The notes under the pieces were generated by a model that saw only the letters and a list, made by a program, of their open reading frames with translations, searched no databases and was not told the origin of the DNA. Both the position numbers and the translations under genes were made by a program. From Methylomarinum sp. (GTDB lineage Bacteria; Pseudomonadota; Gammaproteobacteria; Methylococcales; Methylomonadaceae): a DNA stretch of 19,565 nt. Below, piece by piece: positions 1 to 19,565 of this stretch (position 1 is its first letter; every line of letters begins with the position of its first letter). Location of the stretch: the NCBI GenBank assembly GCA_013139755.1, contig WTAG01000179.1:1-19565 (forward strand), in the 5' to 3' direction.

Positions 1-376
1 GCAAGGCTTCATCAGTCACCGTGCCAGGGGTAACAACGCGCATTACTTTGCGTTCTACTGGGCCTTTGCTGGTAGCCGGGTCACCGACTTGTTCACAGAA
101 GACTACGGATTCACCTTGTTTAATTAATCTGGCAACATAGCCTTCAGCGGCGTGGTGAGGCAGTCCTGCCATCGGAATGGGTTCGCCAGCAGATTTTCCT
201 CGGCTGGTTAGGGTAATATCTAATAGTTCAGCTGCTTTTCTGGCATCATCAAAAAATAATTCGTAAAAATCCCCCATCCGGTAAAAAACCAGCGTATCGG
301 GATGTTGTGATTTGATGCGCAAATATTGCTGCATCATCGGAGTATGTGGGTTAGTTTTTTTCTGTTCTGTAGGCAT
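1..376 (-). CDS. mutS: DNA mismatch repair protein MutS, N-terminal part (runs off the window)
   Basis: Only the first 125 codons are present; the rest lies beyond position 1. The translation begins [19 protein letters not shown] and continues through [13 protein letters not shown] and [16 protein letters not shown], which is the MutS mismatch-recognition domain I. The Phe-X-Glu motif that stacks on the mismatched base is seen as F37-Y-E39 (E. coli F36/E38). MutS recognises base mismatches and small loops and recruits MutL in methyl-directed repair. The start is the ATG at 374-376; no upstream ATG fits the family N-terminus, and the Shine-Dalgarno sequence is weak. It is divergent from pncC with only 33 nt between the starts, a neighbourhood common in gammaproteobacteria. 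Identity is certain; completeness cannot be judged. Confidence 0.97.
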
Positions 377-409: not shown

Positions 410-1207
410 ATGATGGATAAACAAATAACTGAACTTGCAGAGCAATTAGGGCTTAAATTAAAAGAAAATAAGCTGAAAATTGTTACCGCCGAATCTTGTA
501 CGGGAGGGGGAATAGCGCAAGCCATGACTGAAATCTCAGGAAGTTCAGTCTGGTTTGATAGAGGGTTTGTCACTTATAGCAATTTGGCTAAAGTACAAAT
601 GTTACAAGTAAAGCAAGTGACTTTAGATGATTTTGGAGCAGTCAGTGATGAAGTCGCTAGGGAAATGGTTGGAGGTGCTTTAGCTAATAGTGATGCAGAA
701 ATAGCTGTTTCAGTGACTGGTATTGCTGGGCCTACGGGTGGTTCGGAGCAAAAGCCAGTCGGTACTGTTTATATTGCCTGGGGAATGACGGGCGGAGCAA
801 TAGGGTGTAAAAAGTATGCCTTTTTAGGCGATAGAACTGAAATTAGGCAGCAAACTGTTGTTTATGCATTAACAAATTGTTTACAGCAACAAAAAATATT
901 TAAAAACATAAAGGTATCACTTTATCAAAAAAGTGAAATCTTTTTAAAACAATTGTTGAAACAAAAATTACCAGAAAATAGTCATTATTTTCTTTTTGGC
1001 TCAAGAGCAAAGGGAACCGCAAGTGAAATGGCTGATATTGATATTGGAATCTTGGCAGAATTAGCAATACCAAAACAAATTATCAATAATATAAATGAAG
1101 AAATAGAAGAATCTTTTGTTCCCTATAAAGTAGATTTAATTGATTTTAAAGTGGCTTCTGAGTCATTCACACAACAAGCATTAAAGAAGGTTATCCCGTG
1201 GAATTAA
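410..1207 (+). CDS. pncC: NMN amidohydrolase (PncC/CinA C-terminal) fused to a minimal nucleotidyltransferase (MNT) domain
   Basis: The 265-residue protein has two domains. Residues about 5-160 are a complete PncC/CinA_C domain, with TAESCTGGGIAQAM at 26-39, SVTGIAGPTGG at 101-111 and GTVYIAW at 118-124. This family deamidates nicotinamide mononucleotide in NAD recycling. Residues about 170-265 are an MNT domain with the GSRA motif at 197-200, the metal-binding D-I-D at 209-211 and a third acidic residue at D242 in KVDLIDF. That is the catalytic set of HI0073/MntA-type nucleotidyltransferases. Stand-alone PncC is about 160 residues, so the MNT part is an in-frame extension with almost no linker. 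No ATG or GTG lies between the domains; only weak TTG codons (953, 956) could start a separate MNT. The 3' end overlaps the HEPN gene by 10 nt. Start is ATG 410 or 413. Domain identities are firm; the activity of the fusion is inference. Confidence 0.9.
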   Translation: MMDKQITELAEQLGLKLKENKLKIVTAESCTGGGIAQAMTEISGSSVWFDRGFVTYSNLAKVQMLQVKQVTLDDFGAVSDEVAREMVGGALANSDAEIAVSVTGIAGPTGGSEQKPVGTVYIAWGMTGGAIGCKKYAFLGDRTEIRQQTVVYALTNCLQQQKIFKNIKVSLYQKSEIFLKQLLKQKLPENSHYFLFGSRAKGTASEMADIDIGILAELAIPKQIINNINEEIEESFVPYKVDLIDFKVASESFTQQALKKVIPWN

Positions 1208-1614
1208 AATTACAGGTTTATAAGCAAGCACTGGATGGCTTTAACTACCTGGCTAATGTTGATTATGTTTCCTTGCAGAAAATATTGGATCCCAGATTAA
1301 TTGATGGACTTGAAAATGGTTTGATACAGAAATTTGAAATTATTACTGAATTGAGCTGGAAATTAGCAAAAGTATTTTTGTTTAAAATGGAAGCTGTTGA
1401 CTCAAAAACACCAAAGCAAAGTATTAAAAGTTTTTTTGCAGCAGGTCATCTTGTTGAGGAAGATTATTTATTATGGATGCAGGCACTTGATGATAGAAAT
1501 AGCTTGAGCCATCGATATGATGAAGAGTCTTATCAGACAGCTTTAAAAAGAATGAAAGTTTATGCTGAGTTATATTTAAAATTATTGGCTTTTTTTGAAA
1601 ACTACAGTAAATAA
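1198..1614 (+). CDS. HEPN-family nucleotidyltransferase partner (HI0074-like, HepT-type)
   Basis: This 138-residue, mostly helical protein matches the HI0074 / NTase_sub_bind family: FEIITELSWKLAKVFL at 46-61, then DDRNSLSHRYDEE at 98-110. It keeps R100-X4-H105-X-Y107, the R-X4-H-X-Y signature of HEPN RNase toxins. In HepT/MntA systems the Tyr is AMPylated by the MNT partner, which silences the toxin. Start is GTG at 1198, inside the end of the upstream fusion gene, so translation is probably coupled and the two proteins likely act together. All three catalytic-motif residues are retained, so it may be an active RNase. HI0074 itself was described only as an NTase substrate-binding partner, so toxicity is inferred. 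Confidence 0.85.
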   Translation: MELKLQVYKQALDGFNYLANVDYVSLQKILDPRLIDGLENGLIQKFEIITELSWKLAKVFLFKMEAVDSKTPKQSIKSFFAAGHLVEEDYLLWMQALDDRNSLSHRYDEESYQTALKRMKVYAELYLKLLAFFENYSK

Positions 1615-1742: not shown

Positions 1743-3137
1743 ATGACTGAACCACATTTATATAGACGACACTATCAACTTGGCATTGTTTTTTGGCTCC
1801 AATGGTGTGTCGCAGTGGGGTTGATACTGGTCTTACTCGCATTGTTAACACTGAATAAAACAGGAGAAATAAGCCAGGCCTATCGCTTATTAATGGTATT
1901 AACCCTATTAGTTACAACACCTGTTTATAGTTTGTGTCGTGTTTATGCACAAGATCAAGGGCTTATTAATGGAGCTGCTCGCCTTGGTTTTGCATGGTTG
2001 TTAGTGCTTCTTGTACTAGGTGTCATTGGGTTTATTACTAAAACGAGTGAAGTCTACTCTAGAGAAGTGATGCTGCAATGGAGTGTATTGGGGGGTATAG
2101 TTCAAGTTTTAACTTTCTTCATGTTGCATAAAATGACCAAAATCTATTATCAGCATGACCGAAGAAAAACCAAAGTTATTATTATTGGAACGGGGCAGTT
2201 AGCAAAAAAATTAGCAACTGTAATAGCAACTAAGAAAGAAGAACAGCTGGTTGGTTTTGTTTCCCTTAAAACAACAGATGTCATAGAAATAGATAAGTTA
2301 TCAGCTATGCTTGGTGGTATAGAGGAACTAAGAACACTTATACCCGAGTATCGAGTGAATAAACTTTATATTGCGCTTCCAATGACTGACCTAGACAATA
2401 TTGAATCGTTGTATATTGATTTTTTAGATATGTATGTCGATGTCATTTGGGTACCAGATTTAGCTAGTTTGATGTTATTTAATCATGAGATAGTGGATGT
2501 GGCTGGGTTATCAGCCATTCATTTTAATCAGAACCCATTGTCTACATATTGGCCAGCAGCAATGATGAAAGCCGTAATAGATAAAATCCTCGCATTGTTA
2601 GCTATTATTGTATTGAGTCCTGTTTATGTGATGACTGCCATTGCAATCAAGTTAAATTCTCCTGGCCCCGTACTTTTTAAACAAAAGCGGCATGGTTGGA
2701 ATGGAACCGTTATTAATGTATGGAAGTTTCGTAGTATGTATGTTCATCATGATAAACAGCTTAAGCAAGCCATACGAAATGATGAAAGAGTGACAAAAGT
2801 AGGGCGGTTTATCCGCAGAAGTTCAATTGATGAAATGCCTCAGTTCTTCAATGTATTAATGGGGAGTATGTCATTAGTCGGGCCACGACCTCATGCCTTG
2901 GAGCATAATAATTATTACACGGGAAAAATAATTGCCTATATGGCAAGGCATAGAATTAAACCTGGTATTACAGGCTTAGCTCAAATTAGTGGCTGTCGAG
3001 GTGAAACCTCCACGGTAGAGCAAATGAAAAGGCGAGTGGAATATGATTTAAGCTATATTAATAATTGGTCTATAGGCTTGGATCTTAAAATTTTGATAAA
3101 AACGCCATTTTCTTTGTTATCAAAAGATGTTTATTGA
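1743..3137 (+). CDS. Undecaprenyl-phosphate sugar-phosphate transferase (WcaJ/WbaP-type polyprenyl glycosylphosphotransferase)
   Basis: The protein has 464 residues. Four hydrophobic segments at about 17-37, 49-66, 80-99 and 112-129 are followed by a nucleotide-binding-like fold starting KVIIIGTGQLAKKLA (144-158). A further membrane segment lies at 278-303, then the cytoplasmic Bac_transf catalytic domain. That domain shows LNSPGPVLFKQKRHGWNG (304-321), WKFRSMYV (327-334), SSIDEMPQFFNVL with the catalytic D363-E364 pair, SLVGPRPHA (377-385) and KPGITGLAQISG (406-417). The family transfers a sugar-1-phosphate (often glucose or galactose) from a UDP-sugar to undecaprenyl phosphate at the inner membrane, the first step of repeat-unit assembly. 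It is the first gene of the glycan locus. The exact sugar cannot be read from the sequence. Confidence 0.93.
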   Translation: MTEPHLYRRHYQLGIVFWLQWCVAVGLILVLLALLTLNKTGEISQAYRLLMVLTLLVTTPVYSLCRVYAQDQGLINGAARLGFAWLLVLLVLGVIGFITKTSEVYSREVMLQWSVLGGIVQVLTFFMLHKMTKIYYQHDRRKTKVIIIGTGQLAKKLATVIATKKEEQLVGFVSLKTTDVIEIDKLSAMLGGIEELRTLIPEYRVNKLYIALPMTDLDNIESLYIDFLDMYVDVIWVPDLASLMLFNHEIVDVAGLSAIHFNQNPLSTYWPAAMMKAVIDKILALLAIIVLSPVYVMTAIAIKLNSPGPVLFKQKRHGWNGTVINVWKFRSMYVHHDKQLKQAIRNDERVTKVGRFIRRSSIDEMPQFFNVLMGSMSLVGPRPHALEHNNYYTGKIIAYMARHRIKPGITGLAQISGCRGETSTVEQMKRRVEYDLSYINNWSIGLDLKILIKTPFSLLSKDVY

Positions 3138-3163
3138 AAATAGTAATCTTGAATAAATAAATT

Positions 3164-4480
3164 GTGATAGATAAAATAAAAAAACTTTGTCAGCATCAGG
3201 GCTTTATTCTTTATTTTAAAAATACTTCATGGATGATGGGAGAGCAAATGCTACGAATGCTGGCTGGGTTGTTTGTGGGGATTTGGGTGGCGCGCTATTT
3301 AGGGCCAGAACAATTCGGTATATTCAGTTATGTATTAGCATTTTCTTCTATTTTTGCTGGAATTGCAAAATTAGGATTGGATGGAGTGCTTGTACGTGAA
3401 CTAGTTCATCATCCAGAAAAACGTGATGTCTATTTAGGTACTGCATTTTGGCTGAAAATGATTGGAGCATTGTTGGTAATGGGCTTTGTTGCAGTTGCTG
3501 TGCAATTTACCTCGAATGATGTATTAACGAATTTATATATTTTTATTATTTGTTCTGGTTTATTATTTCAAAGTTTTGAAGTAATAGAATTTTATTTTCA
3601 AGCTCAAGTTTTGGCAAAGATTGTTTCTATTTGTAAAGTGATTCAATTGGTGTTTTCATCAATTGTGAAAATCTATTTAGTGATTATTCAAGCTGAGTTG
3701 GTTTGCTTTGTTCTTGTTGCACTATTTGATGCCTTTACTTTGGCAATTGCTTTGTTTATTGCTTATAAAACACAGAGTGCTATTAGTTTCTACAAAAAAT
3801 TTGATTTAAGTGTAGCTGGTAAATTATTGAATGATTCCTGGCCACTTATTTTTAGTGGTTTTGTTTTAATGATTCAAGCTAGAATTGATCAAGTGATGAT
3901 CAAGGAAATAATTGGTGAGATAGAGGTAGGTTATTATAGTGTTGCTTTGAGACTTATAGAGATTTTTGCATTTATTCCAATGATGCTTAAAAATTCACTT
4001 TTACCATCTATAGTAAATTCTAAAAATAATTCTGAGAAAATTTATCTAAAAAGGATGTTGAATTTTTATAGATTAAACTTTTTATTATTTTTAGCTATAT
4101 CTATTCCAATATATGTTTTCTCAGAGAAAATTGTAATTATGATGTTTGGAATAGAATATCAGAGTGCAGGAGTTTTATTGTCTTTAATGACTATAAGACT
4201 ATTCTTTGCAAATATGGGGGTAGCCAGAGGTACATTTATATTGGTTGAAAATTTGCTTAGATTTTCACTGTTAACGATGCTTTTAGGTACTATTACAAAT
4301 ATAGTTTTAAATTATTTATGGATTTATAAATATGGATCTCAAGGGGCAGTTTTAGCTACAGTTGTTTCAATGATAGTGACCATATTTTTAGTAGATATTA
4401 TTTATTTTAAAACTAGAGTTAATATACGTTTAATGCTGAAGGCTATTTTAACATTTTATAAAATTAATATAAGGATATGA
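3164..4480 (+). CDS. Wzx-type lipid-linked oligosaccharide flippase
   Basis: The protein has 438 residues and is hydrophobic throughout, with about a dozen membrane segments typical of the MATE-like polysaccharide transporter (Wzx/RfbX) family. The N-terminal block GEQMLRMLAGLFVGIWVARY followed by LGPEQFGIFSYVLAF is characteristic. It would move the finished undecaprenyl-linked glycan from the cytoplasmic to the periplasmic face of the inner membrane. The start is GTG at 3164; the Shine-Dalgarno sequence is weak. Its stop overlaps the next start (ATGA at 4477-4480), so it is probably translated with the downstream methyltransferase. Base composition drops towards high AT in the second half and stays low through the following genes. 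Confidence 0.92.
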   Translation: MIDKIKKLCQHQGFILYFKNTSWMMGEQMLRMLAGLFVGIWVARYLGPEQFGIFSYVLAFSSIFAGIAKLGLDGVLVRELVHHPEKRDVYLGTAFWLKMIGALLVMGFVAVAVQFTSNDVLTNLYIFIICSGLLFQSFEVIEFYFQAQVLAKIVSICKVIQLVFSSIVKIYLVIIQAELVCFVLVALFDAFTLAIALFIAYKTQSAISFYKKFDLSVAGKLLNDSWPLIFSGFVLMIQARIDQVMIKEIIGEIEVGYYSVALRLIEIFAFIPMMLKNSLLPSIVNSKNNSEKIYLKRMLNFYRLNFLLFLAISIPIYVFSEKIVIMMFGIEYQSAGVLLSLMTIRLFFANMGVARGTFILVENLLRFSLLTMLLGTITNIVLNYLWIYKYGSQGAVLATVVSMIVTIFLVDIIYFKTRVNIRLMLKAILTFYKINIRI

Positions 4481-5151
4481 TGATGGGGTTAATAAATTTT
4501 GGTGTGCCTGAAAGTAAAATAAATTTCTTAATAAAAAAATTAGGCCTTAATGTGTTTGTTGAAGGTGGTACTTATAAAGGTGGTACTGCTAAGGCTATGA
4601 GTACTAAGTTTGAAAAAGTATACACAATTGAAAAATCTTTAGATATGTTTGATATAGCCAAAGAAAACCTAATATCTTTATCAAATGTATTAATGTTGAA
4701 AGGAGATACAAGAGAGCATTTACAATCAATTTTAGAAAATAATGATGATATTTTGTTTTGGTTAGATGCTCATTGGAGTGGAGGAAAGACATATGGTGAA
4801 GAAGATGAATGTCCTTTAATTGAAGAATTAGAAATAATATTTTCTTATAATAAGAGCTATATAATTTTAATAGATGATGCTAGGCTTTTTCTAGCTCCTC
4901 CTCCAAAGCCACATAATTTTTTAAACTGGCCATCCTTAACAGATATTATAAAATTAATGCCTGATAATTGGGATTTAATTGAATTTGAAGATGTTATATA
5001 TTTGTTTCCTAAAAGTATTAATATTGATTTTAGAGAGTATTTGCAGCAGGGGATTACAGAAAAATGGAAAAAAAGTAACAAGGAGGCGGCAGGTAGTATT
5101 CTAAACGGCTTGAAAATTTCTATTCGTGGATTGTTAAATGGGAACTTATAG
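4477..5151 (+). CDS. Probable class I SAM-dependent methyltransferase (glycan modification)
   Basis: The protein has 224 residues. A motif-I-like loop, NVFVEGGTYKGGTAKAM, lies at 25-41. An acidic strand end, YTIEK, lies at 49-53, followed by LFWLDAHWSGG (93-103) and IILIDDARLF (129-138). These resemble methyltransferases found among polysaccharide genes, although the glycine loop is EGGTYKGG rather than the classical GxGxG. Three ATG codons in a row (4477, 4480, 4483) follow an AAGG at 4471-4474, so the exact start is open; 4477 overlaps the flippase stop by 4 nt. The likely job is O-methylation of a sugar in the repeat unit. The acceptor is unknown, and an atypical acyl- or glycosyl-transfer role is not excluded. 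Confidence 0.65.
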   Translation: MMMGLINFGVPESKINFLIKKLGLNVFVEGGTYKGGTAKAMSTKFEKVYTIEKSLDMFDIAKENLISLSNVLMLKGDTREHLQSILENNDDILFWLDAHWSGGKTYGEEDECPLIEELEIIFSYNKSYIILIDDARLFLAPPPKPHNFLNWPSLTDIIKLMPDNWDLIEFEDVIYLFPKSINIDFREYLQQGITEKWKKSNKEAAGSILNGLKISIRGLLNGNL

Positions 5152-5944
5152 TAAAGAAGGCGGATATAGGAAAGCTATTTTGCTTTTTAAAAAAAATGAA
5201 ATAGTAAGAGAAATTTATTATTTTATGCAAGGAGCAAGAAGCTACTTTAAATTTGAACCATTAAACCTTTTAAAGCAGTATATTTGGTTTTTAAGGCAAT
5301 ATAGAAACTTTAAAAAAATGGAAGATAATAAAAGGTTTAAGAAAACTCAATGGTTTCCTTGCTTGTTAGATCATCAAAAATATACACCACTTGAGCCTAC
5401 GTATTTTTTTCAAGATAGTTGGGCTGCAAAACATATTTTTAAATTAAAACCGAAGCATCATTATGATGTTGGTAGTTCAGCAAAGACCATGGGTGTTTTG
5501 TCACAGTTTGTACCAATCACAATGATTGATATTAGGCCTATAGCGCTAGAATTAGATGGTCTGTTTTTTAAAAAAGGTTCTATTTTAAAACTCCCATTTA
5601 ATGATAGATCTATTGAAAGTTTATCCTCTCTCTGTGTAGTGGAGCATATTGGACTTGGGCGCTATGGTGATGAAATTGATCCCTTTGGTAGTGAAAAGGC
5701 TATTAAAGAGTTAAAAAGGGTATTGAAAGTAGGTGGTATAATTTTATTTAGTGTTCCTGTAGATAATGAAAACAAAATTTATTTTAATGCCCATAGAGCT
5801 TTTACGAGGAGTTATATTTTAGAGCTCTTTGATGATTTTACACTCATTGAAGAGAAGTATCATTATGGTATGGAAATGCATGATATATATGATGTAAATA
5901 AAGGTTTTGGGACTGGTTTGTATATGTTTAAGAAAGAAAGATAA
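5138..5944 (+). CDS. SAM-dependent methyltransferase-like protein (resembles DUF268)
   Basis: The protein has 268 residues. A basic N-terminal region (about 1-75) precedes a Rossmann-like part: YFFQDSWAAKHIF (89-101), HHYDVGSSAKTMGVL (107-121), TMIDIRPI (128-135), then VVEHIGLGRYGDEIDPFG (167-184) and LKRVLKVGGIILFSVPV (192-208). The last two are the usual motifs around the methyltransferase post-I region, with Gly-rich LKVGG. The QD-W-A and DVGSS arrangement recalls DUF268 proteins. It overlaps the upstream gene by 14 nt at the chosen ATG; M30 is an alternative start with less support. The stop shares one base with the next ATG (TAATG). A glycan methylation role is inferred from context. Confidence 0.7.
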   Translation: MGTYSKEGGYRKAILLFKKNEIVREIYYFMQGARSYFKFEPLNLLKQYIWFLRQYRNFKKMEDNKRFKKTQWFPCLLDHQKYTPLEPTYFFQDSWAAKHIFKLKPKHHYDVGSSAKTMGVLSQFVPITMIDIRPIALELDGLFFKKGSILKLPFNDRSIESLSSLCVVEHIGLGRYGDEIDPFGSEKAIKELKRVLKVGGIILFSVPVDNENKIYFNAHRAFTRSYILELFDDFTLIEEKYHYGMEMHDIYDVNKGFGTGLYMFKKER

Positions 5945-6738
5945 TGTTTACAAAAATATCGTATATAAAAAGAAAAATAAGAAGTCTTTCCCTGAAAGTT
6001 TTTAATAGTATTGAAAATAATGGGAATTGTAATTTTATAGTAAATGGGGAAAAGTTATTTATTGATAATTTATTTTATTATTTTATAAAGTCTAAACAGA
6101 AAAGAATTGTTTTTGATCTTGGGGCTAATAAGGGGGAATATTCGAAAATAATTCAAGATACAAGTGAAAAAAATAATATTGATGTTGATTTATATTTGTT
6201 TGAACCTACAAAAAGTTGTTTTTTAACTATTAAAAATAAATTTGAAGAGGGAGGTGTCGTATTAAACAATTTTGGTGTTTCTGATGTAGAGGGCGTGTCT
6301 AAAATATATTACGATAAAGAGCAGAGTGGGCTGGCTTCTTTATATCAAAGAAATCTAAATTCGTATAATATTAAACTAGATAAAGTTGAAAACATTCAAC
6401 TTAGGCGGTTAGATAATTATATAAAAGAAGTTGGTATTAAACATATTGATTTTATAAAAATAGATATTGAAGGTCATGAACTATCTGCATTTAAAGGATT
6501 TGGTCAATATTTGAATGCTGATTTTATTAGTTTTATTCAATTTGAATATGGTGGTGCAAATCTAGATTCACATACAAGCCTTATGGAGTTGTATGAATTG
6601 CTTGAAGGGTGTGGGTTTGTAATTTGTAAAATAATGCCGAAAGGGTTAGATATTAGGACTTATAGCCCTTTTATGGAAAACTTCAATTATTCTAATTATG
6701 TTGCAATTTCTAAAAAAGTTATAAAGAATTTTTTGTGA
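5944..6738 (+). CDS. FkbM family methyltransferase
   Basis: The protein has 264 residues and carries the FkbM (Methyltransf_21) hallmarks: IVFDLGANKGEYSKII (55-70, SAM loop), LYLFEPTK (83-90), RRLDNYI (154-160) and FIKIDIEGHELSAFKGF (170-186). FkbM-type enzymes O-methylate sugars or polyketides; in glycan loci they are usually assigned to sugar methylation. Its ATG overlaps the previous stop by one base. The last 45 nt of the conserved 3' block (around 6670-6714) match 39 of 45 bases in the degenerate copy around 7264-7308, so the downstream remnant is a close paralogue. No frameshift or missing motif is seen here, so this copy is probably functional. Confidence 0.92.
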   Translation: MFTKISYIKRKIRSLSLKVFNSIENNGNCNFIVNGEKLFIDNLFYYFIKSKQKRIVFDLGANKGEYSKIIQDTSEKNNIDVDLYLFEPTKSCFLTIKNKFEEGGVVLNNFGVSDVEGVSKIYYDKEQSGLASLYQRNLNSYNIKLDKVENIQLRRLDNYIKEVGIKHIDFIKIDIEGHELSAFKGFGQYLNADFISFIQFEYGGANLDSHTSLMELYELLEGCGFVICKIMPKGLDIRTYSPFMENFNYSNYVAISKKVIKNFL

Positions 6739-7019
6739 TTTATTTTATTGGGCAGGGATAACTTGGTAATCAGGTATTCCAATATGTATTTATTAAGACA
6801 ATTTAAAATTAATTTTACTGTAAATTTTAAATTTCTGATAAAAAATAAAAAGACATCTAATAAATATCTTTTTTTAAAAGAATCAATGTCTAGAATGAAC
6901 CAACTGGTGCGTCAATATGGTTCGTTTCATTAGAATAATGGTACTGATCCTTGACCTAGTCATTTTAAAACACTGATTTGCATTCATCGTGATTGTGGAG
7001 CACTTTGATACAAGGAAGA
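6739..7019 (+). other. Low-coding stretch with a short unconvincing open frame (6748-6933)
   Basis: No gene can be supported between the intact FkbM gene and the FkbM remnant. A 61-codon frame with a non-ATG start (6748-6933) has a strongly basic, Asn/Phe/Lys-rich translation typical of AT-rich non-coding DNA, ending in MNQLVRQYGSFH. I recognise no domain. From about 6890 the base composition becomes slightly less AT-rich, and frames with broken coding-like runs appear, so this may be the eroded 5' part of the same lost gene or of another one. Confidence 0.3.
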
Positions 7020-7320
7020 ATGACCTGGCAAACAACACAAGTTAATTCTATCAAGGTTGATGTAGTAGGGTATGAATTACAGTTTTTTCATGGATTTGTA
7101 GAGTATCTACGAAATAATTTTATCGATTATATTCAGTTCTAATATGGAGGAGAAAATTTGATTCTCACACTAATTTTTATGGGGCTATAAATTATTAAAT
7201 GAGAGGGTTTTTTTTCTTGTGAAAGTAATGGAAAAAGGTCTGGAAATAAGAGAATGTTCTCTATTTATGGATAATTTTAATTATTCAAATTATGCTGCTA
7301 TTTCTAAAGGAAAAAATTAA
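7020..7320 (+). pseudogene. Degenerate 3' remnant of a second FkbM methyltransferase
   Basis: From 7020 a frame reads MTWQTTQVNSIKVDVVGYEL, then QFFHGFVEYLRNNFIDYIQF, a stop, and YGGEN. This aligns with FIKIDIEGHELSAFKGFGQY and IQFEYGGANL of the intact gene upstream. The stop TAA replaces the conserved Glu codon of QFEYGG. After a frameshift the frame DSHTNFYGA continues, then after another shift FLVKVMEKGLEIRECSLF and MDNFNYSNYAAISKGKN, ending at TAA 7318-7320. These correspond to IMPKGLDIRTYSPFMENF and NYSNYVAISKK of the 5944-6738 product. The Glu of the IDIEGHE motif is also replaced (DVVGYE). At least one stop and two frame changes make it non-functional. Its TAA abuts the next ATG directly. 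Confidence 0.88.
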
Positions 7321-8190
7321 ATGATTATTTTTCTAGCTGATGGCCGATTAGGTAACCAATTATTTCAATATGCTTTTTTGAAGGCTATTCAACGTAGAAA
7401 AGAAAAAATAATGGTTTCTGGGTTTGAGGAGCTAAATGAAGTTTTTGAAGTTAATGACATTATTCGTATAAACAAAAAAAATAGGTGGATTAGGGTGATA
7501 GTGTTTAGGATGATAAGGCCCGTATTGATATTTCTTAGTGATTATAAAATAATAAGTGCAATTAAGATTGTTCATGAAAAAATTTTAGATAACTTTCGTC
7601 GTGAAACAAAAAAAACCATAAAAACCAATGGATTATTTGACGTGGTTCTATTTGTTAAATTAGGTTTTTTTCAAAGCAATGTTTTTTTTGAAGAAAATGA
7701 TATAAAACACCTTGAAATTAAAAAAAAATACAAAGATTGTGCCCGTCAAAATATTAAGTCTATACCATTAGATAGTCATAGGGTGTTTGTTCATATAAGA
7801 CGTGGTGATTATAAAGATCATAAGGTATATGGGAGAAATACACTCTTACCAATTGAATATTACAAAGAACAAATTAATTGGTTTAAGTTAAACAAGAAAA
7901 ACCCTTTCTTTATTTTTTTAAGTGATGAACCTGACTTTATAGAAGAAGAATTTGGATATATAAAAGAAAAAATTATTCCAATAAATAATCACTTTGGGGT
8001 TGATATGGCTATTATGTCTCTATGTCAGAGTGCCATACTTAGCCCAAGTAGTTTTAGCTGGTGGGGAAGTTATTTTATGAAAAAAAGAGATACAGTTTTT
8101 ACACCAGAATATTGGCTAGGTTTTGAAAGTAAAACAGAGTATCAAAAAGGAACTATTACTGAGTATATGACTGAGATTGACATAAAATGA
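7321..8190 (+). CDS. Glycosyltransferase family 11 (alpha-1,2-fucosyltransferase-like)
   Basis: The protein has 289 residues and shows the GT11 signature blocks: [16 protein letters not shown] (8-23), the GDP-fucose-binding [11 protein letters not shown] (157-167), [17 protein letters not shown] (196-212) and [12 protein letters not shown] (241-252). These enzymes transfer fucose from GDP-fucose in alpha-1,2 linkage, commonly to galactose. They act in the cytoplasm, building the lipid-linked unit. The start ATG follows directly on the stop of the FkbM remnant. The 3' end overlaps the SDR stump by 4 nt (ATGA). The window holds no GDP-fucose synthesis genes (gmd, fcl), so the donor must be made elsewhere or a related donor is used. 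The family call is strong; the exact linkage is inferred. Confidence 0.92.
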
Positions 8191-8300
8191 AAAAACGAAT
8201 CCTAATCACCGGTGGCGCTGGTTTCCTTGGCTCGCATTTGTGTGAAAGCCTCTTAAATGAAGGTAATGATGTTATTTGTGCGGATAAGGCGACGATGTGA
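8187..8300 (+). pseudogene. Truncated head of an SDR nucleotide-sugar enzyme (UDP-glucuronate decarboxylase-like)
   Basis: A 37-codon frame starting at ATG 8187 reads [20 protein letters not shown] and then [12 protein letters not shown] before ending KATM and TGA. This is the NAD-binding N-terminus of extended SDR enzymes such as UDP-glucuronate decarboxylase or epimerases: the GGAGFLG dinucleotide loop is at residues 9-15, and DVICAD is where the family normally continues with DN(F/L). Homology stops at about 8286 and a glycosyltransferase gene begins at once. About 44% of its bases are G+C (50 of 114), against 27% in a sample line of the fucosyltransferase gene, so it has a different origin. 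The frame overlaps the upstream stop (ATGA) and the downstream GTG. It cannot be an enzyme; it may still act as a coupling leader. Confidence 0.85.
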
Positions 8301-9214
8301 CCTTAGCCCCAATAGTCCTTTTCGTCTACAACCGCCCGTGGCATACCCAGCAAACAATTGAAGCCTTGCAGAAAAATGAATTAGCAAATGAAAGTGAACT
8401 GTTTATTTACAGCGATGCTCCTAAAAACGAATCAGCTAAAGGCAGTGTTACAGAAGTTAGAGAGCTAATTAAAAATATAAAGGGTTTTAAACAGGTAACC
8501 GTTATTGAAAGAAAAAAAAACTGGGGGCTGGCTGACTCTATTATTGATGGTGTGACAACTATTATCCATCAATATGGAAAAATCATTGTGCTTGAGGATG
8601 ATTTGGTAACGAGTCCATATTTTTTAAAGTATATGAATGAGGCGCTAGATTTTTATAAGGATGAGGAAAAGGTTTGGCATATTAGTGGCTGGAATTATCC
8701 AATAGCCGTTGATGGCTTAGGTGATGTTTTTTTTTGGCGATTGATGAATTGCTGGGGCTGGGCAACATGGGAGAATAATTGGCAATTTTTTGAAAAAAAT
8801 ACTTTCAAATTAATCAATGAATTTTCAAAAGAACAAATAAGGTATTTAAATTTGGATGGTTTCAATGATGCTTGGTCACAGGTTACCTTAAACAACGAAA
8901 ATAGAATTAAAACTTGGGCGATATACTGGTATGCCACGATTGTGAAAAATGATGGTTTATGTTTAAATCCAGTAAAAACTTTTGTGAATAATATAGGGTT
9001 AGATGGAAGTGGTGTTCATTGTGGAGATAGTGATTTTTTTAAAACCGAAATAAAAGAGTTAAGGAAAAATGTAAATTATACAACGATTTTCGTTGAAGAT
9101 AAGCAAGTGGTAAATAGAATTAAATTACATTATAAACATGTAGATAATAACTTTCTTTATAGAATGCTGAAGAGGATTTACAAAATTTTTAAAAGAGGCT
9201 TAAATGTTAAGTAA
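8297..9214 (+). CDS. Glycosyltransferase, GT2-like (GT-A fold)
   Basis: The protein has 305 residues. The N-terminus [20 protein letters not shown] (4-23) and [12 protein letters not shown] (75-86) match a GT-A glycosyltransferase group often annotated as GT2 or sugar transferase. The acidic metal- and nucleotide-binding motif is [18 protein letters not shown] at 96-113, followed by [10 protein letters not shown] (126-135). A Trp-rich segment, [12 protein letters not shown], comes next. It would add one sugar to the lipid-linked glycan from a nucleotide-sugar donor at the cytoplasmic face. The start is GTG 8297, with AAGG at 8286-8289 placed 7 nt upstream. The AAGG itself lies in the SDR stump, so the join created or kept a usable ribosome site. 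The 3' end overlaps the next gene by 11 nt. Donor and linkage are unknown. Confidence 0.85.
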
Positions 9215-10151
9215 GTTAAAATATTTAATAAGTAGGTTACGGAGTTTTTCGAGTAAAAGCGATATAGATGAATTAAAAAAACTATCTGCTCAGATCCTGA
9301 TACGAGATAATAATAAGTCCACATTTTATTCTCTCATAGATTCGGAGTTTAAAGTATTTTCTCAATGGGGTGAGGATGGAATTATTCAATACTTAATAAA
9401 TAAAATACCGATCAGAAATAATGTTTTTGTAGAGTTTGGCGTAGAAAATTATATCGAAGCAAATACAAGGTTTTTACTTGAAAATAACAATTGGTCTGGA
9501 TTGGTATTGGATGGGTCAAGCACACATATAAAATCAATACAAAGCAGTGATTTGTATTGGAAATATGATTTACTAGCAAAAAAAATTTTTATCACAAAAG
9601 ATAATATTGACAAAATTATTGCAGAATATATAAATTCCAATAAGCTTAATCAAGAAATAGGGCTGCTGAGTATTGATATTGATGGGAATGATTATTATAT
9701 TTGGAAGGCCATTGAAGCCATCGATCCTGTTATAGTAATTTGTGAATATAATTGGATTTTTGGAAATAAATATAAATTAACAGTGCCGTATGATGAAAAC
9801 TTTATAAGGACTCAAAAACACCATTCTAATTTGTATTTTGGAGCCTCTATTCAGGCTTTATATTCTCTTGCTAAAATTAAGGGTTACGAATATGTTGGAT
9901 GCACAACAGCAGGTAATGATGCTTTTTTCGTTAAAAAAGAATATGCAAAAAAATATATTAATGAACTTATAACAACGCCTTCAGAAACTTTTAACAAGCA
10001 GCAAGCGAAAGAATCACGCGACAAGAAAGGGGTGTTAACTTTTGTAAGAGGGAGCTATAGGTTAAAGATAGTTCAAGATTTAGAAGTCTTGAACTTGGAT
10101 ACAAATAAGAATATACGATTAAGCACTTTGGTTGACGACGAGATGCTTTAA
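9204..10151 (+). CDS. Uncharacterised methyltransferase-like protein
   Basis: The protein has 315 residues. Distinctive blocks are FKVFSQWGEDGIIQYLI (49-65), NVFVEFGVENYIEANTRFLL (73-92), WSGLVLDGS (97-105) and GLLSIDIDGNDYYIWKAI (153-170). The order of an acidic strand with a Gly loop (VEFGVE), a second acidic strand (VLDGS) and IDIDGND recalls SAM methyltransferases of the FkbM type, where the equivalent of the last block is KIDVEGHE. The SQWGEDG start is a conserved mark of this group, which is usually found in glycan loci without a tested function. It overlaps the glycosyltransferase gene by 11 nt, and the next gene starts immediately after its stop. The methyltransferase call is tentative. 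Confidence 0.6.
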   Translation: MLSKLKYLISRLRSFSSKSDIDELKKLSAQILIRDNNKSTFYSLIDSEFKVFSQWGEDGIIQYLINKIPIRNNVFVEFGVENYIEANTRFLLENNNWSGLVLDGSSTHIKSIQSSDLYWKYDLLAKKIFITKDNIDKIIAEYINSNKLNQEIGLLSIDIDGNDYYIWKAIEAIDPVIVICEYNWIFGNKYKLTVPYDENFIRTQKHHSNLYFGASIQALYSLAKIKGYEYVGCTTAGNDAFFVKKEYAKKYINELITTPSETFNKQQAKESRDKKGVLTFVRGSYRLKIVQDLEVLNLDTNKNIRLSTLVDDEML

Positions 10152-10865
10152 ATGAAAATAGAAAATGGAGTTCAAAAAAATCATTATTTTGAATATAGAA
10201 AAGTTAGCGAATCATTTTATAAAAATGCAACAATTCCTATTTGGATAAAAAATGAATTATCAAATAAAGAATCAAAGATTTTAGATTATGGTTGTGGGTT
10301 TGGGCAAAACTTAACAGCATTGGCGAATGAAAATTATCAAAATATCTACGGCGTGGATATAGAAAAAAATGCAATCAAGCAGTGTTTGAAAAATAATTTG
10401 GTGGTTAAAAAGCTGGATTTGAATAATTTGGTAAATCCTTTTGACTTTAAATTTGATGTTATTATTTTGACGCACATTATCGAACATATTCCGAAAGATG
10501 AAATTATCAGTACTTTGATATTGATAAAACAAAAGTTTTTATCCAGTGATGGTAAGTTGTTAATTGCGGTGCCCAATGCGCAGTCTAATACCGATTGTTA
10601 TTGGGCTTATGAAGACTGGACACACACGACATTGTTCACTTCGGGTTCTTTGTATTACGTATTAAAAGCAGCAGGGTTTCAGAATGTAGATTTTCTTGAT
10701 ATTGATTGTACTTTGGGCAGTGTCGGCATCAAAATAATCATTCGGAGATTTTTTCTTAAACTGTACAAAATTAACAAAAATTTCTGGAACAAAATTACCG
10801 CGAGTTCCTATCACAAGCCTTCGCCTGTAATATTTAGTTATGAAATTAAATGCAAGGCTTTTTGA
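10152..10865 (+). CDS. Class I SAM-dependent methyltransferase
   Basis: The protein has 237 residues. Motif I is SKILDYGCGFGQNLTAL (41-57), with the acidic motif II at YGVDIEKNAIKQC (66-78). The motif around strand 4 is FDVIILTHIIEHIPKDEI (101-118), followed by LIAVPNAQSNTDCYW (137-151), DWTHTTLFTSGSL (155-167) and AAGF (173-176). This is a Methyltransf_23/11-type enzyme like those in O-antigen and capsule loci. The ATG directly follows the previous TAA. It probably modifies a sugar of the lipid-linked glycan, but the position and acceptor are unknown. The C-terminal 60 residues are basic and could touch the membrane. Confidence 0.88.
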   Translation: MKIENGVQKNHYFEYRKVSESFYKNATIPIWIKNELSNKESKILDYGCGFGQNLTALANENYQNIYGVDIEKNAIKQCLKNNLVVKKLDLNNLVNPFDFKFDVIILTHIIEHIPKDEIISTLILIKQKFLSSDGKLLIAVPNAQSNTDCYWAYEDWTHTTLFTSGSLYYVLKAAGFQNVDFLDIDCTLGSVGIKIIIRRFFLKLYKINKNFWNKITASSYHKPSPVIFSYEIKCKAF

Positions 10866-12015
10866 TTTAATGATCCAAAAACTAAAAACACTTATCAAGT
10901 TGATTGCTTTTTGTGCAATAAATATATTCGTCAAGTCCTCAAAAGAGGTAAGCAAAAAAACGCTTTTAATCATCCGTCTTGATGCTATCGGCGATTATAT
11001 TTTGTTCAGAAATTATATTGAGGCGCTTAAAAAAATTGAACGCTACAAAAATTATAAAATCACTTTGATTGGAAATAGCATTTGGAAAGATTTAGCTTTA
11101 GAGCTTGATAGTCAATTTGTGGATGGTTTTATTTGGCTGGACAAAGGTAAGTTTGATAAAAATCTTATTTATCGTTATAAAAAATTAAGAGAAATTGCAT
11201 CTGTAGGATATGAAATAGTGGTGAACCCTGTTTATAGTAGGGAGTTTTATTACGGAGATATGATTGTAAAGCTGGTAAATGCTAGTGAAAAAGTTGGTAG
11301 CATTGGGGATTTGTCAAATATCAAAAAGTGGCAAAAAAAGATAAGTGATACCTACTATACGCAGCTAATTGATGCAGATAGTCGATTGATGTTTGAATTT
11401 AATCGAAATAAAGAGTTTTTTGAGAATTTTTTACAGCAGCAATTGATAATTCCAAAGCCTTTTATAAAATTAAACAATAAAAAAATATCTTTTGAATTAC
11501 CCGAAAATTATGCCCTTCTTTTTATTGGTGCAAGTGCTAGCTTTAGAAAGTGGGATATAGAAAAATTTGCACAGGTAGCGAAGTATTTGAAAAATAACTT
11601 GGGGCTGAATATTGTCTTATGCGGTGGCCCTTCAGATAAATCGGATGCTGATATATTTAAACAGCATTATACTGACGATTACTTAGACTTAGTGGGTAAA
11701 ATGTCACTCGTTGATTTTTTGTATGTCATTTATAACGGGAAGCTAATGATAGCAAATGAGACTTCTGCTCCTCATTTTGCGGTTGCGTTAGAAATGACAA
11801 AGCTATTTGTCATTTCTAACGGAAATCATTATGGCCGTTTTACTCCTTACCCTACGAAAATAACAAGCAATTATCATGTCATTTATCACCCAGAAATAGA
11901 AAAAGATTTAGATGATTATAAAAAACTTTCGAACCTTTATGGTTTAGGTAGTGAATTAAATATTTCTGATATTAGCGTAGAGCGAGTTATTGAAACAATA
12001 AATGCAGTGTACTAA
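10840..12015 (+). CDS. Glycosyltransferase family 9 (heptosyltransferase-like)
   Basis: The protein has 391 residues from the first ATG. TLLIIRLDAIGDYILFRNYI (41-60) is the GT9 N-terminal donor-domain start. YALLFIGASASFRKWDIEKF (224-243), NIVLCGGPSDKSDAD (257-271), LVGKMSLVDFLYVI (284-297) and MIANETSAPHFAVAL (303-317) follow the ADP-heptose:LPS heptosyltransferase pattern, where a D(S)GPxHxA loop is usual and here is NETSAPHFA. GT9 enzymes include heptosyltransferases and related transferases for other sugars. ATG 10840 overlaps the upstream gene by 26 nt. ATG 10870 (MIQKLKTLIK) lies just past the upstream stop with AAGG about 12 nt before it, and is equally likely. No heptose synthesis genes are present, so the donor is open. 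Confidence 0.87.
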   Translation: MKLNARLFDLMIQKLKTLIKLIAFCAINIFVKSSKEVSKKTLLIIRLDAIGDYILFRNYIEALKKIERYKNYKITLIGNSIWKDLALELDSQFVDGFIWLDKGKFDKNLIYRYKKLREIASVGYEIVVNPVYSREFYYGDMIVKLVNASEKVGSIGDLSNIKKWQKKISDTYYTQLIDADSRLMFEFNRNKEFFENFLQQQLIIPKPFIKLNNKKISFELPENYALLFIGASASFRKWDIEKFAQVAKYLKNNLGLNIVLCGGPSDKSDADIFKQHYTDDYLDLVGKMSLVDFLYVIYNGKLMIANETSAPHFAVALEMTKLFVISNGNHYGRFTPYPTKITSNYHVIYHPEIEKDLDDYKKLSNLYGLGSELNISDISVERVIETINAVY

Positions 12016-12041
12016 ATAATAACTTCTTTAAAAGCGATAGC

Positions 12042-12158
12042 GTGCCGACCACTGTATACTCAAGTGGGCACAGAGAAAAAGCCTCCTTTGCCCATCCTAC
12101 ACAAGAAGAACTTAACTTAATGGCATTGGGTTTAGTGGTAAAGGTTGAGGACGATTAA
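12042..12158 (+). other. Orphan short reading frame, possible gene remnant
   Basis: In the 200-nt gap after the GT9 gene, a frame from GTG 12042 to TAA 12156-12158 reads VPTTVYSSGHREKASFAHPT and then QEELNLMALGLVVKVEDD. Its amino-acid composition and codon use look coding, unlike the AT-rich spacer around it. It reads like the C-terminal tail of a larger protein whose body has been lost. I do not recognise the family, and there is no ribosome site. The rest of the gap (12016-12041 and 12159-12215) shows nothing I can name. Confidence 0.3.
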
Positions 12159-12215
12159 TATTTAACAATTTGGAATAAAGAATAAAAACCTGTTCATGAG
12201 ACCTAGAAAAGAAAA

Positions 12216-13351
12216 ATGAATATACTGGGGTTAATACAGCAAGGTGAAAATGCTTCCATTGAATTTAAAGAAAGTTTACCTCGACCTGAGAGTATTGCAA
12301 AAGAGATTATAGCTTTTGCCAACACTCAAGGGGGGACTTTGTTAGTTGGTGTGACTGATGATGCCAAGGTGTGCGGTATCATTGAAGAGAAAAGCCATGA
12401 AGAGTTTTTTTCTAATATTGCACGTAATAATGTAATTCCTGCTATTGATATTAAAATACAATGGGTTGATTTCAAAAATAAAAAAGTACTTGTTATCAGT
12501 GTACCCAAAGGCAAAGATAAGCCTTATCAAACATTAAACCATCAATTTTTAGTGAGAATTGGATCAACAAATAGAGTGGCAACCCAAGCTGAATTAATGC
12601 GTTTGTTTCAGCAAAGTGGCGTGTTTCATTATGATGCTATTGGCATTGAAAATAGCAGTATAAAAAATATTAATTTACATAAAATATCAGAATATTTTGA
12701 TAATTATCAGGTAGACTTTGCTCAGGAAGAACAACCAGAAAATTTACTAAGAAACACCGATATACTCACCGATAATTTACAGGTGACAGTGGCTGGTTTA
12801 TTGGTCTTTTCTTTAAACCCTCAACGGTTTATGCCTGATGCCTGTATTAGCTTTGCTCATTTTTCAGGCAATAAGATAACTGAAGAATTAATTGATAAAC
12901 AGACGATTGCAGGCACACTGGATTATCAGGTTGATACTGCATTAGCGGTCATAAAAAATAATTGTCAAAAGCCGTCTCTTATTGAAGGAAGCAAAACGGT
13001 ACAGACTCGGTTTAGTTATCCAGATAAAGTTTTTAGGGAGTTGCTGGTTAATGCTTGTATTCATCGGAATTATTCCATTGCAGGCTCGAGAATACGGATC
13101 TTTATGTTTTTAGTGATCGGATTGAATTTATTAGCCCTGGTAAGTTACCGAATACGGTCACAGTTGAGAAATTAAGTTATGGGGTCTCTTATTCAGTTAA
13201 TCCAATTATCGTTAAGTTTATGGAAAATTTAAGATACATTGATAAACTAGGTAGAGGCCTACCTATGGTTTATAAAATAGCAAAAGAGAGCCATAAGCAG
13301 ATTAAGTTTGAAGAAATAGGCGAAGAATTTAAGGTAACACTTGAATTGTAA
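12216..13351 (+). pseudogene. AlbA_2 / Schlafen-like ATP-binding protein, broken by a frameshift
   Basis: The first frame (12216-13175) has the AlbA_2 (Schlafen AlbA) domain: NASIEFKESLPRPESIAKEI (12-31), FANTQGGTLLVGVTDD (34-49) and FLVRIGSTNRVATQAEL (111-127). It then enters the HATPase_c_4 region with VFRELLVNACIHRNYS (272-287). After SRIRIFMF the frame becomes unrelated. The natural continuation, FSDRIEFISPGKLPNTVTVE and later YIDKLGRGLPMVYKIAKE, sits in another frame ending at TAA 13351. The shift lies at the T5 run 13107-13111. Joined, the product would be about 378 residues, near full length for these RecG-like putative transcription or helicase-related regulators. Without correction the protein loses the ATP-lid region (GRGLP), so it is probably inactive, unless slippage or a sequencing error restores it. 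It sits between glycosyltransferase genes but is not a glycan enzyme. Confidence 0.85.
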
Positions 13352-13402
13352 CCTTGTTGCCGAGGAAGATTAAAAAGCCTTACTGTTGATGAACAGTGCA
13401 AT

Positions 13403-13411
13403 GGGGGGGGG
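13403..13411. repeat. G9 homopolymer tract upstream of a glycosyltransferase gene
   Basis: Nine consecutive G residues lie in otherwise AT-rich DNA, in the 104-nt gap after the broken ATPase gene and about 45-90 nt before the candidate starts of the GT2 gene. An ATG (13401-13403) runs into the tract, and the resulting frame closes a few codons later. Long G tracts are prone to slipped-strand change and can alter promoter spacing or a leader frame. The rest of the gap shows no clear promoter or terminator. Confidence 0.6.
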
Positions 13412-13455
13412 CTAGTAATCATTTTTTGAGAAAGCATTAAGCTCTATTAATAGCT

Positions 13456-14454
13456 GTGATGCTTTGTCTTTCTTATGAATCCACTGAGTTAATAATGATT
13501 GTATTAGATTCACAATATAGTACTACTCGCAAAGTGACGTTAACCCCGCCGGCAATGAGTAATGGGGAGACCGAAAAAATTCATTCAATGCTTTTTTTAC
13601 CAGAAACTCCTGAGCGGATAGGGCAGGGTGGATTGCGAATTGAAGGCTATTTTAAAAAAAATGAAATAAATAATCCTCCTCTTATCAGTGTAATTACTAT
13701 TGTCTACAATGGTGTTAAATATATAGAGCAGACGATTAACAGTGTTATTGGTCAATCTTATAATAATGTCGAATATATTATTATTGATGGAGGGTCAACT
13801 GATGGTACTTTGGATATTATTAAAAAATATGAGAAGCAGATTGATTATTGGGTGAGTGAATCAGATAAAGGCATTTCAGATGCTTTTAATAAAGGTATAT
13901 CATTATGTACTGGAGAAATCATTGGTATTATTAATGCAGATGATTGGTATGAAACGGATGTTTTTGAAAAAATCAGTTATAACAAACAATATGATGTCAT
14001 ACACGGTCAACTTCAATATTGGAAAGACAATTTTAAATTAGAACTATTTATGCCAAACCAAGTAGGACTCGATAAAGAAATGACTTTAAACCATCCAACC
14101 TGTTTTGTTAAACGTGAAGTTTATAACAAGATAGGTGATTTTAATTGTGAATTAAAAATTTCGATGGATTATGACTTTTTATTAAGAGTATATAGGCATA
14201 ATATGAAATTTCATTATTTACCTATTGTCATTGCTAATATGAGATATTGTGGGGTGTCTGATATTAATTGGGTTTCAACTTATAAGGAAGTGTTTAAAGT
14301 TAAAGTTAAAAATGGTATTAATATTTATTTTTCTGCCCCCTACTTTATTTATCAAATAGTACGACGCTGTATCAGAATTTTCTTTGGCAAAGTTGGGTTA
14401 CAATTTCTTGTACGATTATATCGGGATAAATTTTCAATAATGCGGAAATCATGA
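13456..14454 (+). CDS. Glycosyltransferase family 2
   Basis: The frame has 332 codons from GTG 13456. ATG 13459 and ATG 13495 are possible starts, and none has a strong ribosome site, so the N-terminus is uncertain. The family part begins at KIHSMLFLPETPERIGQGGL (41-60) and GYFK. The GT-A catalytic domain then shows PLISVITIVYNGVKYIEQTI (75-94), YIIIDGGSTDGTLDII (107-122), SESDKGISDAFNKGI (134-148) and the D-x-D-like metal site IINADDWYE (158-166). HPTCFVKREVY follows, typical of GT2 enzymes of O-antigen and exopolysaccharide loci. It adds one sugar from a nucleotide donor to the lipid-linked glycan. Its stop overlaps the next ATG (ATGA at 14451-14454). Being preceded by a G9 tract, its expression could vary. 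Confidence 0.92.
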   Translation: MMLCLSYESTELIMIVLDSQYSTTRKVTLTPPAMSNGETEKIHSMLFLPETPERIGQGGLRIEGYFKKNEINNPPLISVITIVYNGVKYIEQTINSVIGQSYNNVEYIIIDGGSTDGTLDIIKKYEKQIDYWVSESDKGISDAFNKGISLCTGEIIGIINADDWYETDVFEKISYNKQYDVIHGQLQYWKDNFKLELFMPNQVGLDKEMTLNHPTCFVKREVYNKIGDFNCELKISMDYDFLLRVYRHNMKFHYLPIVIANMRYCGVSDINWVSTYKEVFKVKVKNGINIYFSAPYFIYQIVRRCIRIFFGKVGLQFLVRLYRDKFSIMRKS

Positions 14455-15677
14455 GTGATTTTCATATTATTATCGTCAATGATTTTTCTTTTATTAATGG
14501 TGGTGCAAGTCAAATAGCTATAAGTTCTGCTTTGGCATTATCCTTGGCTGGATATTCAGTGAGTTTTTTCGCTGCTGTTGGGCCAATATCGCCTGAATTA
14601 CGTAATAGCCAAATTAATGTTATTTGCTTAGATCAATACGATATTCTTAATGACCCAAATAGAGTAAGGGCTATAAGTCAGGGGGTTTGGAATAAGAAAG
14701 CTGCACGGGCAATGGATGATTTGTTAAAGACAAAATCAAACCAGAAAGTTATTGTACATATTCACGGGTTTGTTAAAGCACTTAGCTCTAGTGTTATAAA
14801 GATATGTCATCAACATAATGTGCCTATGGTTTTAACCTTGCATGATTATTTTATAGCCTGTCCGAATGGTGGGTTTTATGATTACCAACAAAAAAAACTT
14901 TGTTTAAGGCGTGCAATGTCTTTTGATTGTCTTAGCGCAAATTGTGATGTTCGTAATTATAAACATAAAATATGGCGAGTGATTCGTCATGCTATTCAGG
15001 GGCGAATGGGTGGGGTTCCTGTAATAATTAAACATTTTATTTATATTTCTGAATTAAGCAAACAAATCCTTCAGCCTTATTTGCCTGAAGTAGCTAAATT
15101 ACGCTATGTACCCAATCCAATAGATGTGGTGCAGAGTGATCGAATTGAAGCTGAGAAAAATCATTATTATATTTTTATTGGACGGCTTTCACCCGAAAAA
15201 GGAATTAATGCATTTTGTCATGTGGTTTCAAAATTCAGCTATCCTGCAATTGTTGTGGGTGATGGTGAGTTACTAGATAGTTTAAAGGAATCGTATCCTC
15301 AGATTGAATTTACTGGTTGGCTGGATAAAACAGAAATTTCTTGTGTGATGAATAAGGCAAAAGTATTGGTATTTCCTACTCATTTGTATGAAACTCAGGG
15401 ACTTGTTGTATATGAATCGTTAGCTAAGGGTATCCCCGTTATAGTTCCTAGGCATTGTTGTGCTGCTCAGGACATAGAGCATGGAAAAAATGGTTTTTTA
15501 TATAATGATTCTGATAAAACAGCTTTAGAAGTAGCTATTCATCAGTTTGAAAGATTATCTACTGATCAAATTAAAGTCCTAAGTGAGACTTCTTATAATC
15601 TTTTTTCGAATACAGCGGATAGTAGCCAGCAGCATGTTATTGATTTAATTAGTGTCTACAATGGTATGTGTAAATAG
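14451..15677 (+). CDS. Glycosyltransferase family 4 (GT-B fold)
   Basis: The protein has 408 residues. The N-terminal acceptor domain starts IIIVNDFSFINGGASQIAI (6-24). VLTLHDYFIACPNGGFYDY (127-145) belongs to a GT4 subgroup with several conserved cysteines, here C137, C151, C160 and C165, which could form a small metal or disulfide knuckle. The donor domain shows YIFIGRLSPEKGINAF (240-255), IVVGDGELLDSL (267-278), FTGWLDKTEI (287-296) and the E-X7-E motif in HLYETQGLVVYESLAKGIPV (311-330; E314 and E322). It retains the catalytic and UDP/GDP-sugar binding motifs. It is coupled to the GT2 gene by a 4-nt overlap, so the two probably act in sequence on the same glycan. The donor sugar is unknown. 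Confidence 0.93.
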   Translation: MSDFHIIIVNDFSFINGGASQIAISSALALSLAGYSVSFFAAVGPISPELRNSQINVICLDQYDILNDPNRVRAISQGVWNKKAARAMDDLLKTKSNQKVIVHIHGFVKALSSSVIKICHQHNVPMVLTLHDYFIACPNGGFYDYQQKKLCLRRAMSFDCLSANCDVRNYKHKIWRVIRHAIQGRMGGVPVIIKHFIYISELSKQILQPYLPEVAKLRYVPNPIDVVQSDRIEAEKNHYYIFIGRLSPEKGINAFCHVVSKFSYPAIVVGDGELLDSLKESYPQIEFTGWLDKTEISCVMNKAKVLVFPTHLYETQGLVVYESLAKGIPVIVPRHCCAAQDIEHGKNGFLYNDSDKTALEVAIHQFERLSTDQIKVLSETSYNLFSNTADSSQQHVIDLISVYNGMCK

Positions 15678-15708
15678 ATTATATTTTAATTAAAAAAGAA
15701 GAAATTGA

Positions 15709-18800: not shown

Positions 18801-18869
18801 GGTATTTTTTAATGTAAATTTGGAGTGAATAATGTTAAAAAACTACAAACTAACCACAGCTTATTGCTA

Positions 18870-18921
18870 GGAAGTGAGGCTTTAGTCTCGCCTGATTGTG
18901 CGAGGCTAAATCCTCACTTCC
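18870..18921. repeat. REP-like palindromic element
   Basis: This is a near-perfect 52-bp palindrome. Left arm 18870-18891 starts GGAAGTGAGGC and right arm 18900-18921 ends CCTCACTTCC. The arms pair at 20 of 22 positions around an 8-nt loop. It is more G+C rich than its surroundings and lies between the pilin terminator and the ligase start. This resembles REP/RAYT-type intergenic palindromes, normally dispersed in many copies. It would form a strong hairpin in RNA from either strand and could attenuate pilin read-through into the ligase. Only one copy is in this window. Confidence 0.75.
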
Positions 18922-19000
18922 ATTTCTGTAAATTGTTTGGGAGGTTATAAACCTAATTCCACAAACCTGTCGTTTGTTAATTGGCAGGTGATTTAAAGCA

Positions 19001-19028: not shown

Positions 19029-19047
19029 ATTGGGTATTAGTTAATAA

Positions 19048-19512: not shown

Positions 19513-19565
19513 TTTATGTGTGCCTTCAATTTGATAAAAAGGAAATTCAATAAACTTCAATTACA

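Follow-up and report, generated by a model that had tools for sequence, protein, structure and literature searches.

An in-frame fusion of a PncC NMN deamidase to the MNT half of a probable HEPN/MNT toxin-antitoxin module in Methylomarinum sp.

Class I HEPN/MNT modules are defined by a gene of family PF08780 or PF01934 beside one of family PF01909, with the motifs RX4HXY and GSX10DXD (PMC7641770). The Tyr of the HEPN motif is AMPylated (PMC7641770; PMC11586414), and which signal sets off or reverses AMPylation in type VII HEPN/MNT systems has been called a critical open question (PMC7641770). Occasional fusions of this HEPN group to MNT, nuclease, and methylase domains were noted in a HEPN survey (PMC3710099). 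The closest known systems to the pair described here are HI0073/HI0074 and the Legionella HEPN-MNT module (type VII), but in our sequence the MNT belongs to a PncC protein. Single-domain PncC NMN deamidases, such as E. coli YgaD and A. tumefaciens CinA, agree with this protein in their domain, in the catalytic Ser/Lys, and in the NMN-binding residues; this protein has in addition a C-terminal MNT. In the common two-domain deamidases, a MocF/COG1058 domain is found at the N-terminus of PncC (PMC3855486). NMN is a product of DNA ligase, and PncC may serve to remove it (PMC3855486). Literature searches aimed at the PncC-MNT combination, with most subscription journals outside their scope, returned no report of it, and a literature search for HEPN, MNT, and CinA together found no paper. 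An earlier sighting of the fusion in some domain list is possible, since PMC3855486 mentions occasional fusions of CinA to further domains and leaves them aside.

The features of the locus are listed below. Throughout, the window is the whole stretch of DNA that was analyzed, 19,565 nucleotides in length.

1..375, reverse strand: 5' part of the divergent neighbor of pncC (from translation and alignment), which we take to be mutS.
410..1207, forward strand: PncC-MNT fusion gene, a single frame of 265 aa plus stop with an ATG start.
410..880, forward strand: PncC (NMN deamidase, CinA_C) domain, residues 1-157.
881..919, forward strand: linker, residues 158-170, with no in-frame ATG, GTG, or TTG codon.
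920..1204, forward strand: MNT (minimal nucleotidyltransferase, antitoxin-like) domain, residues 171-265.
1185..1190, forward strand: AGAAGG, a ribosome-binding-like stretch 7 bases upstream of the HEPN GTG, read by eye.
1198..1614, forward strand: HEPN (HI0074-like, toxin-type) gene of 138 aa with a GTG start.

A complete PncC is thus joined to a complete MNT through a 13-residue linker, and the open reading frames of the HEPN gene and the fusion gene end overlap by 10 bases. The coordinates and named residues that an earlier note had given for the fusion and HEPN proved correct in every detail when frames, Pfam matches, and motif positions were checked. In the fusion protein, Pfam identified CinA (E 1.5e-54, residues 7-157), Polbeta (E 3.5e-12, residues 181-260), and NTP_transf_2 (E 1.8e-8, residues 180-246), all above their curated cut-offs. 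The AlphaFold model has a mean pLDDT of 92.0 and a pTM of 0.62, with a hinge at residues 166-168 of the linker where pLDDT falls below 50.

The PncC half keeps S29, C30, S46, Y56, K61, T103, and R142. S29 and K61 are the equivalents of S31 and K63 of A. tumefaciens, where mutation work tied those PncC residues to catalysis and NMN binding (PMC5384747). Both TIGR00199 (161.9 bits, cut-off 68.9) and PF02464 (184.3 bits, cut-off 23.5) were passed. The full-length PncC equivalog NF002975 was missed at 201.6 bits against a cut-off of 212 that is set for the whole protein; in that match, fusion residues 1-160 fall on model positions 1-160 of 164. In PHROGs, the PncC half matches phrog_26784, whose function is unknown.

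The MNT half carries GSX10DXD at residues 197-211 and further Asp residues at 242 and 245. In the HEPN protein, RX4HXY is present as RNSLSHRY from residue 100, including Tyr107. HEPN was assigned to NTase_sub_bind PF08780 (E 2.4e-18, Pfam) and passed the HI0074 family TIGR01987 at 57.2 bits (curated cut-off 55.8). The window therefore holds a PF08780 gene adjoining an MNT, with RX4HXY and GSX10DXD, as in class I HEPN/MNT. The two motifs are common to the window pair and Shewanella oneidensis HepT/MntA (type VII). However, the Shewanella MNT of known structure is longer, at 139 aa, and the window pair falls under the NCBI equivalog cut-offs of 60 bits for both Shewanella-type partners, with 47.2 bits for MNT against MntA_antitoxin NF047752 and 13.9 bits for HEPN against HepT_toxin NF047751. 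The MNT half is only 23-29% identical to 1no5, 8xeo, and 8xeh. The structure model of HEPN has a pLDDT of 93.7, and Foldseek matched it to the AMPylated HEPN toxin 8xdj and also to HI0074 1jog. RX4HXY is kept in 35 of the 40 HEPN relatives found by protein search; the five others are either incomplete (P0018 and P0041) or altered (P0031, P0039, and P0047). PADLOC gave weak matches of the MNT half to Specificity_I (4.3e-10), PDC-S09 (4.8e-6), and others, and no match for HEPN.

We consider it likely that the locus is a class I HEPN/MNT (type VII, HI0073/HI0074-like) toxin-antitoxin module in which the antitoxin has been attached in frame to the resident PncC at its C-terminus, tying the antidote to pncC. 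Judging by the protein families, the PncC domain of the fusion would still deamidate NMN, and the MNT domain, on its flexible hinge, would move AMP from ATP to Tyr107 of HEPN. The product of the overlapping gene, which by family would be a toxic RNase, would thereby be kept off in its AMPylated form. The fusion would tie the supply of antidote to a housekeeping gene, so that no pncC expression would mean no antidote. Such expression coupling would be the simplest consequence of the fusion and may be maintained by selection. Another explanation is that the pair is not a toxin-antitoxin system and instead, in line with the first naming of HI0073/HI0074, represents a nucleotidyltransferase and its substrate-binding subunit that were domesticated in NAD metabolism. 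The best family names, HI0074 substrate-binding subunit (TIGR01987) and NTase_sub_bind, agree with this, and domesticated MNT/HEPN enzymes have been described (PMC3710099). However, a HEPN fused to MNT in one protein is typically without the RNase residues (PMC3710099), whereas the window HEPN is a separate protein that keeps R-X4-H-X-Y, and among its relatives of known structure is a HEPN toxin that was AMPylated. Domestication of this kind seems very improbable to us.

The recurrence of the fusion was examined by a protein search that scored residues 150-265 at E <= 0.001 and took its candidate lengths from the full protein. Eight proteins passed among 85 candidates: seven PncC-MNT proteins, one of them partial (P0004), and one MNT-HEPN protein (P0008). 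The seven further fused proteins are 63-95% identical to the window protein by alignment and come from ncbi, jgi, ena, and lgn. The two that are named are both from Methylococcales (P0001, Methylomarinum sp.; P0004, Methylococcales bacterium). GSX10DXD is kept in all seven. AESCTGG, TYSN..K, VTGIAGP, and G[NDS]R..[VI]R are kept in all six that are full length, and P0004, which is without its N-terminal part, keeps VTGIAGP and G[NDS]R..[VI]R. The earlier note had proposed looking for recurrence of the CinA_C and MNT architecture, which was thus found, and had named an indel confined to this assembly as grounds for dropping the fusion; the seven other fused sequences, from several sources, rule out such an indel. 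They likewise refute an assembly or sequencing error joining two genes. Nothing was found in favor of such an error, and we give it next to no probability. P0008 is a 165-aa protein with MNT fused to a HEPN-type domain (PF18765 and PF08780), another possible fusion of the pair.

All seven further fused proteins end in PWN or PWS (PWS in P0004). In the window, the overlapping HEPN start (CCGTGGAAT) yields the PWN ending of the fused protein, and from the shared endings we infer that the HEPN overlap is also present at the other fused loci. Stand-alone MNTs such as P0049-P0051 share the PWN-type ending, so the MNT/HEPN overlap probably belongs to the module itself and predates the fusion. P0001 and the HEPN protein P0018 probably lie on one contig, since they come from the same named organism and the longest contig is 24,511 for both.

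Counting the window, seven of the eight fused rows have 13 residues between the PncC-terminal Cys and LYQKSE, and P0006 has 12. Linker identity is 62-100% within close pairs and 8-39% between lineages, so the linker has largely changed in sequence without a break in the frame, which rules out an assembly indel. There is no in-frame ATG, GTG, or TTG between codons 126 and 182 of the window gene, and codon 182 falls inside the first MNT helix (171-186). With these three taken as the possible start codons, an intact free MNT is not expected from the window, and the antidote should come only within PncC. Met residues are present in the linkers of P0006 and P0007, and a free MNT might start inside these two.

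Loss of the pncC stop between neighboring genes, which the earlier note had suggested, is a plausible origin, with the qualification that it must be old, as the linkers are 8-39% identical between lineages and yet open. The P0006 linker (MDNLATLYQKSE) resembles the N-termini of the stand-alone MNTs P0051 (MTNAESLYQRSE) and P0054 (MDAETLYQQCE), which fits stop loss as the founding step. The fusion could also be neutral: the stop separating pncC from an MNT-HEPN pair downstream disappeared, the two halves work unchanged, and breaking the frame would remove the antitoxin. This linker resemblance, the existence of stand-alone MNT and HEPN relatives, and the hardly constrained linker sequence all agree with a neutral event. 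The frame is, however, open in eight fused proteins including the window, although this discriminates little, as the cell's need for an antitoxin would be reason enough. We regard neutrality as possible but somewhat unlikely; its probability overlaps with that of the preferred reading because the toxin-antitoxin mechanism is common to both.

The same divergent neighbor flanks unfused pncC in 8 of 11 loci examined, with L003, L007, and L010 as the exceptions; because L001 and L002 belong to a single genome, this amounts to 7 of 10 genomes. The fused gene is therefore most likely the resident pncC and not a second copy. An MNT-HEPN pair like that of the window was absent 3' of pncC in the 11 unfused loci, where the genes on this side vary, those of L008 and L009 being alike. 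Pilin-like frames similar to one in the window, described below, occur 3' of pncC in L008 and L009. In L005 (1-338, reverse strand), from the unfused relative G296, a different MNT-like gene lies about 350 bases past pncC and reaches the contig end. A promoter scan of 250-1800 gave four sites against a shuffle average of 5.7 and none upstream of pncC, so steady pncC expression is an assumption here.

Directly after the HEPN gene, a long surface-polysaccharide-type cluster occupies 1743-16824 of the window, with sugar transferase, FkbM methyltransferase, and glycosyltransferase 2 and 9 families; its further frames are presumably of the same type. Within this stretch, a Schlafen AlbA_2 / HATPase_c_4 (RecG-C-like) gene at 12216-13351 is apparently split, as by a frameshift, into overlapping frames at 12216-13175 and 13055-13351. 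At 16875-19560 on the reverse strand, a Wzy_C (O-antigen ligase type) protein adjoins another frame, which we take to be type IV pilin-like, and the two are possibly a pilin glycosylation pair.

With the fusion as query against 301 genomes of the order, 280 matched; among the matches listed, none was a PncC-MNT fusion and every match past residue 162 contained a stop. With the fusion alignment against 369 genomes of the class, 236 matched; among the matches listed, there was no fusion, none ran past residue 167 without a stop, and the best row other than G001 scored 222.7 bits. A search of genome contigs gave one locus, an unfused pncC. MNT matched 15 of 237 genomes of the family, its best places being 28-37% identical to the window MNT. 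HEPN matched 14 of 311 genomes of the order, two of them strongly (L047 and L048), and one of 369 genomes of the class (L061), and all three of these loci adjoin separate MNT genes. The MNT-HEPN pairs of L047, L048, and L061 are separate and overlapping, and the genes near them look to us to be of polysaccharide type, as after the window module. No HEPN relative was found in viral contigs. Among plasmids, the fusion matched 391 records, of which 0 reached 80% coverage, and HEPN matched eight, all below 60% identity.

The domain trees gave differing pictures of the spread of the fusion. In the PncC tree, whose rows were hand-chosen (L002 being the same genome as L001) and many of whose forks are unresolved, a single clade of fused rows is rejected at p-AU 0.00085 when 22 of 31 pncC loci and the partial P0004 are included. 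Without P0004 and with 16 of the 31 loci, it is again rejected (p-AU 0.016). The half PncC of P0004 pairs with the unfused L003 at a support of 100/98. The MNT tree was built from the first 50 of 91 MNT matches plus the fused rows. Here, the fused rows form one group at 93/92 when the 59-aa fragment P0097, labeled as fused by hand, is counted among them, and at only 81/43 without it, which points weakly to the fusion having arisen once. The window, P0018, and P0038 lie inside a 19-row clade of the HEPN tree with a support of 99/98; P0038 was grouped as fused solely by a longest contig equal to that of P0097, itself putatively fused. Stand-alone MNTs reach about 60% identity at best, and among the HEPN relatives one carries the name Beggiatoa. 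Scattered PncC domains together with weakly grouped MNT domains suggest repeated loss or transfer: either one old fusion was lost repeatedly, or the module was passed from species to species and recombination within pncC joined it again. A foreign base composition of the MNT-HEPN part was also considered. Third-position G+C is 28.7% for PncC, 20.0% for MNT, and 26.1% for HEPN. Fisher's test gave p 0.29, and a composition break as strong arose in 1394 of 2000 shuffles, so it gives recent transfer no support.

A further possibility is that the fusion acts as a metabolic switch: PncC would sense NMN (from NAD-dependent DNA ligase and NAD breakdown) and gate MNT, and the HEPN toxin would be freed when NAD/NMN status changes, as upon phage attack or DNA damage. 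In favor of a switch, the fusion retains the substrate-binding residues of PncC, and linker length is steady at 12-13 residues despite sequence drift. However, those residues are expected to persist anyway if this is the cell's own deamidase, the low-confidence hinge and the pTM of only 0.62 do not support a fixed domain contact, and presence among relatives is patchy. We find a switch improbable. An extended form, in which NMN/NAD status tunes HEPN AMPylation by MNT and a module moving repeatedly between methanotroph species docks at the 3' end of pncC, is a speculation to which we give little weight.

Under the preferred reading of a toxin-antitoxin module tied to pncC, the antidote is probably made whenever the housekeeping enzyme is made, in several methane-oxidizing bacteria. 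An antitoxin that is seemingly not made apart from an NAD-recycling enzyme would depart from the usual short-lived, separately controlled antidote. With the fusion, it becomes possible to test directly whether the module is linked to NAD metabolism or has reached a stable domesticated state. If PncC did act as a sensor, the toxin-antitoxin switch would respond directly to NAD turnover, as during phage attack or DNA damage.
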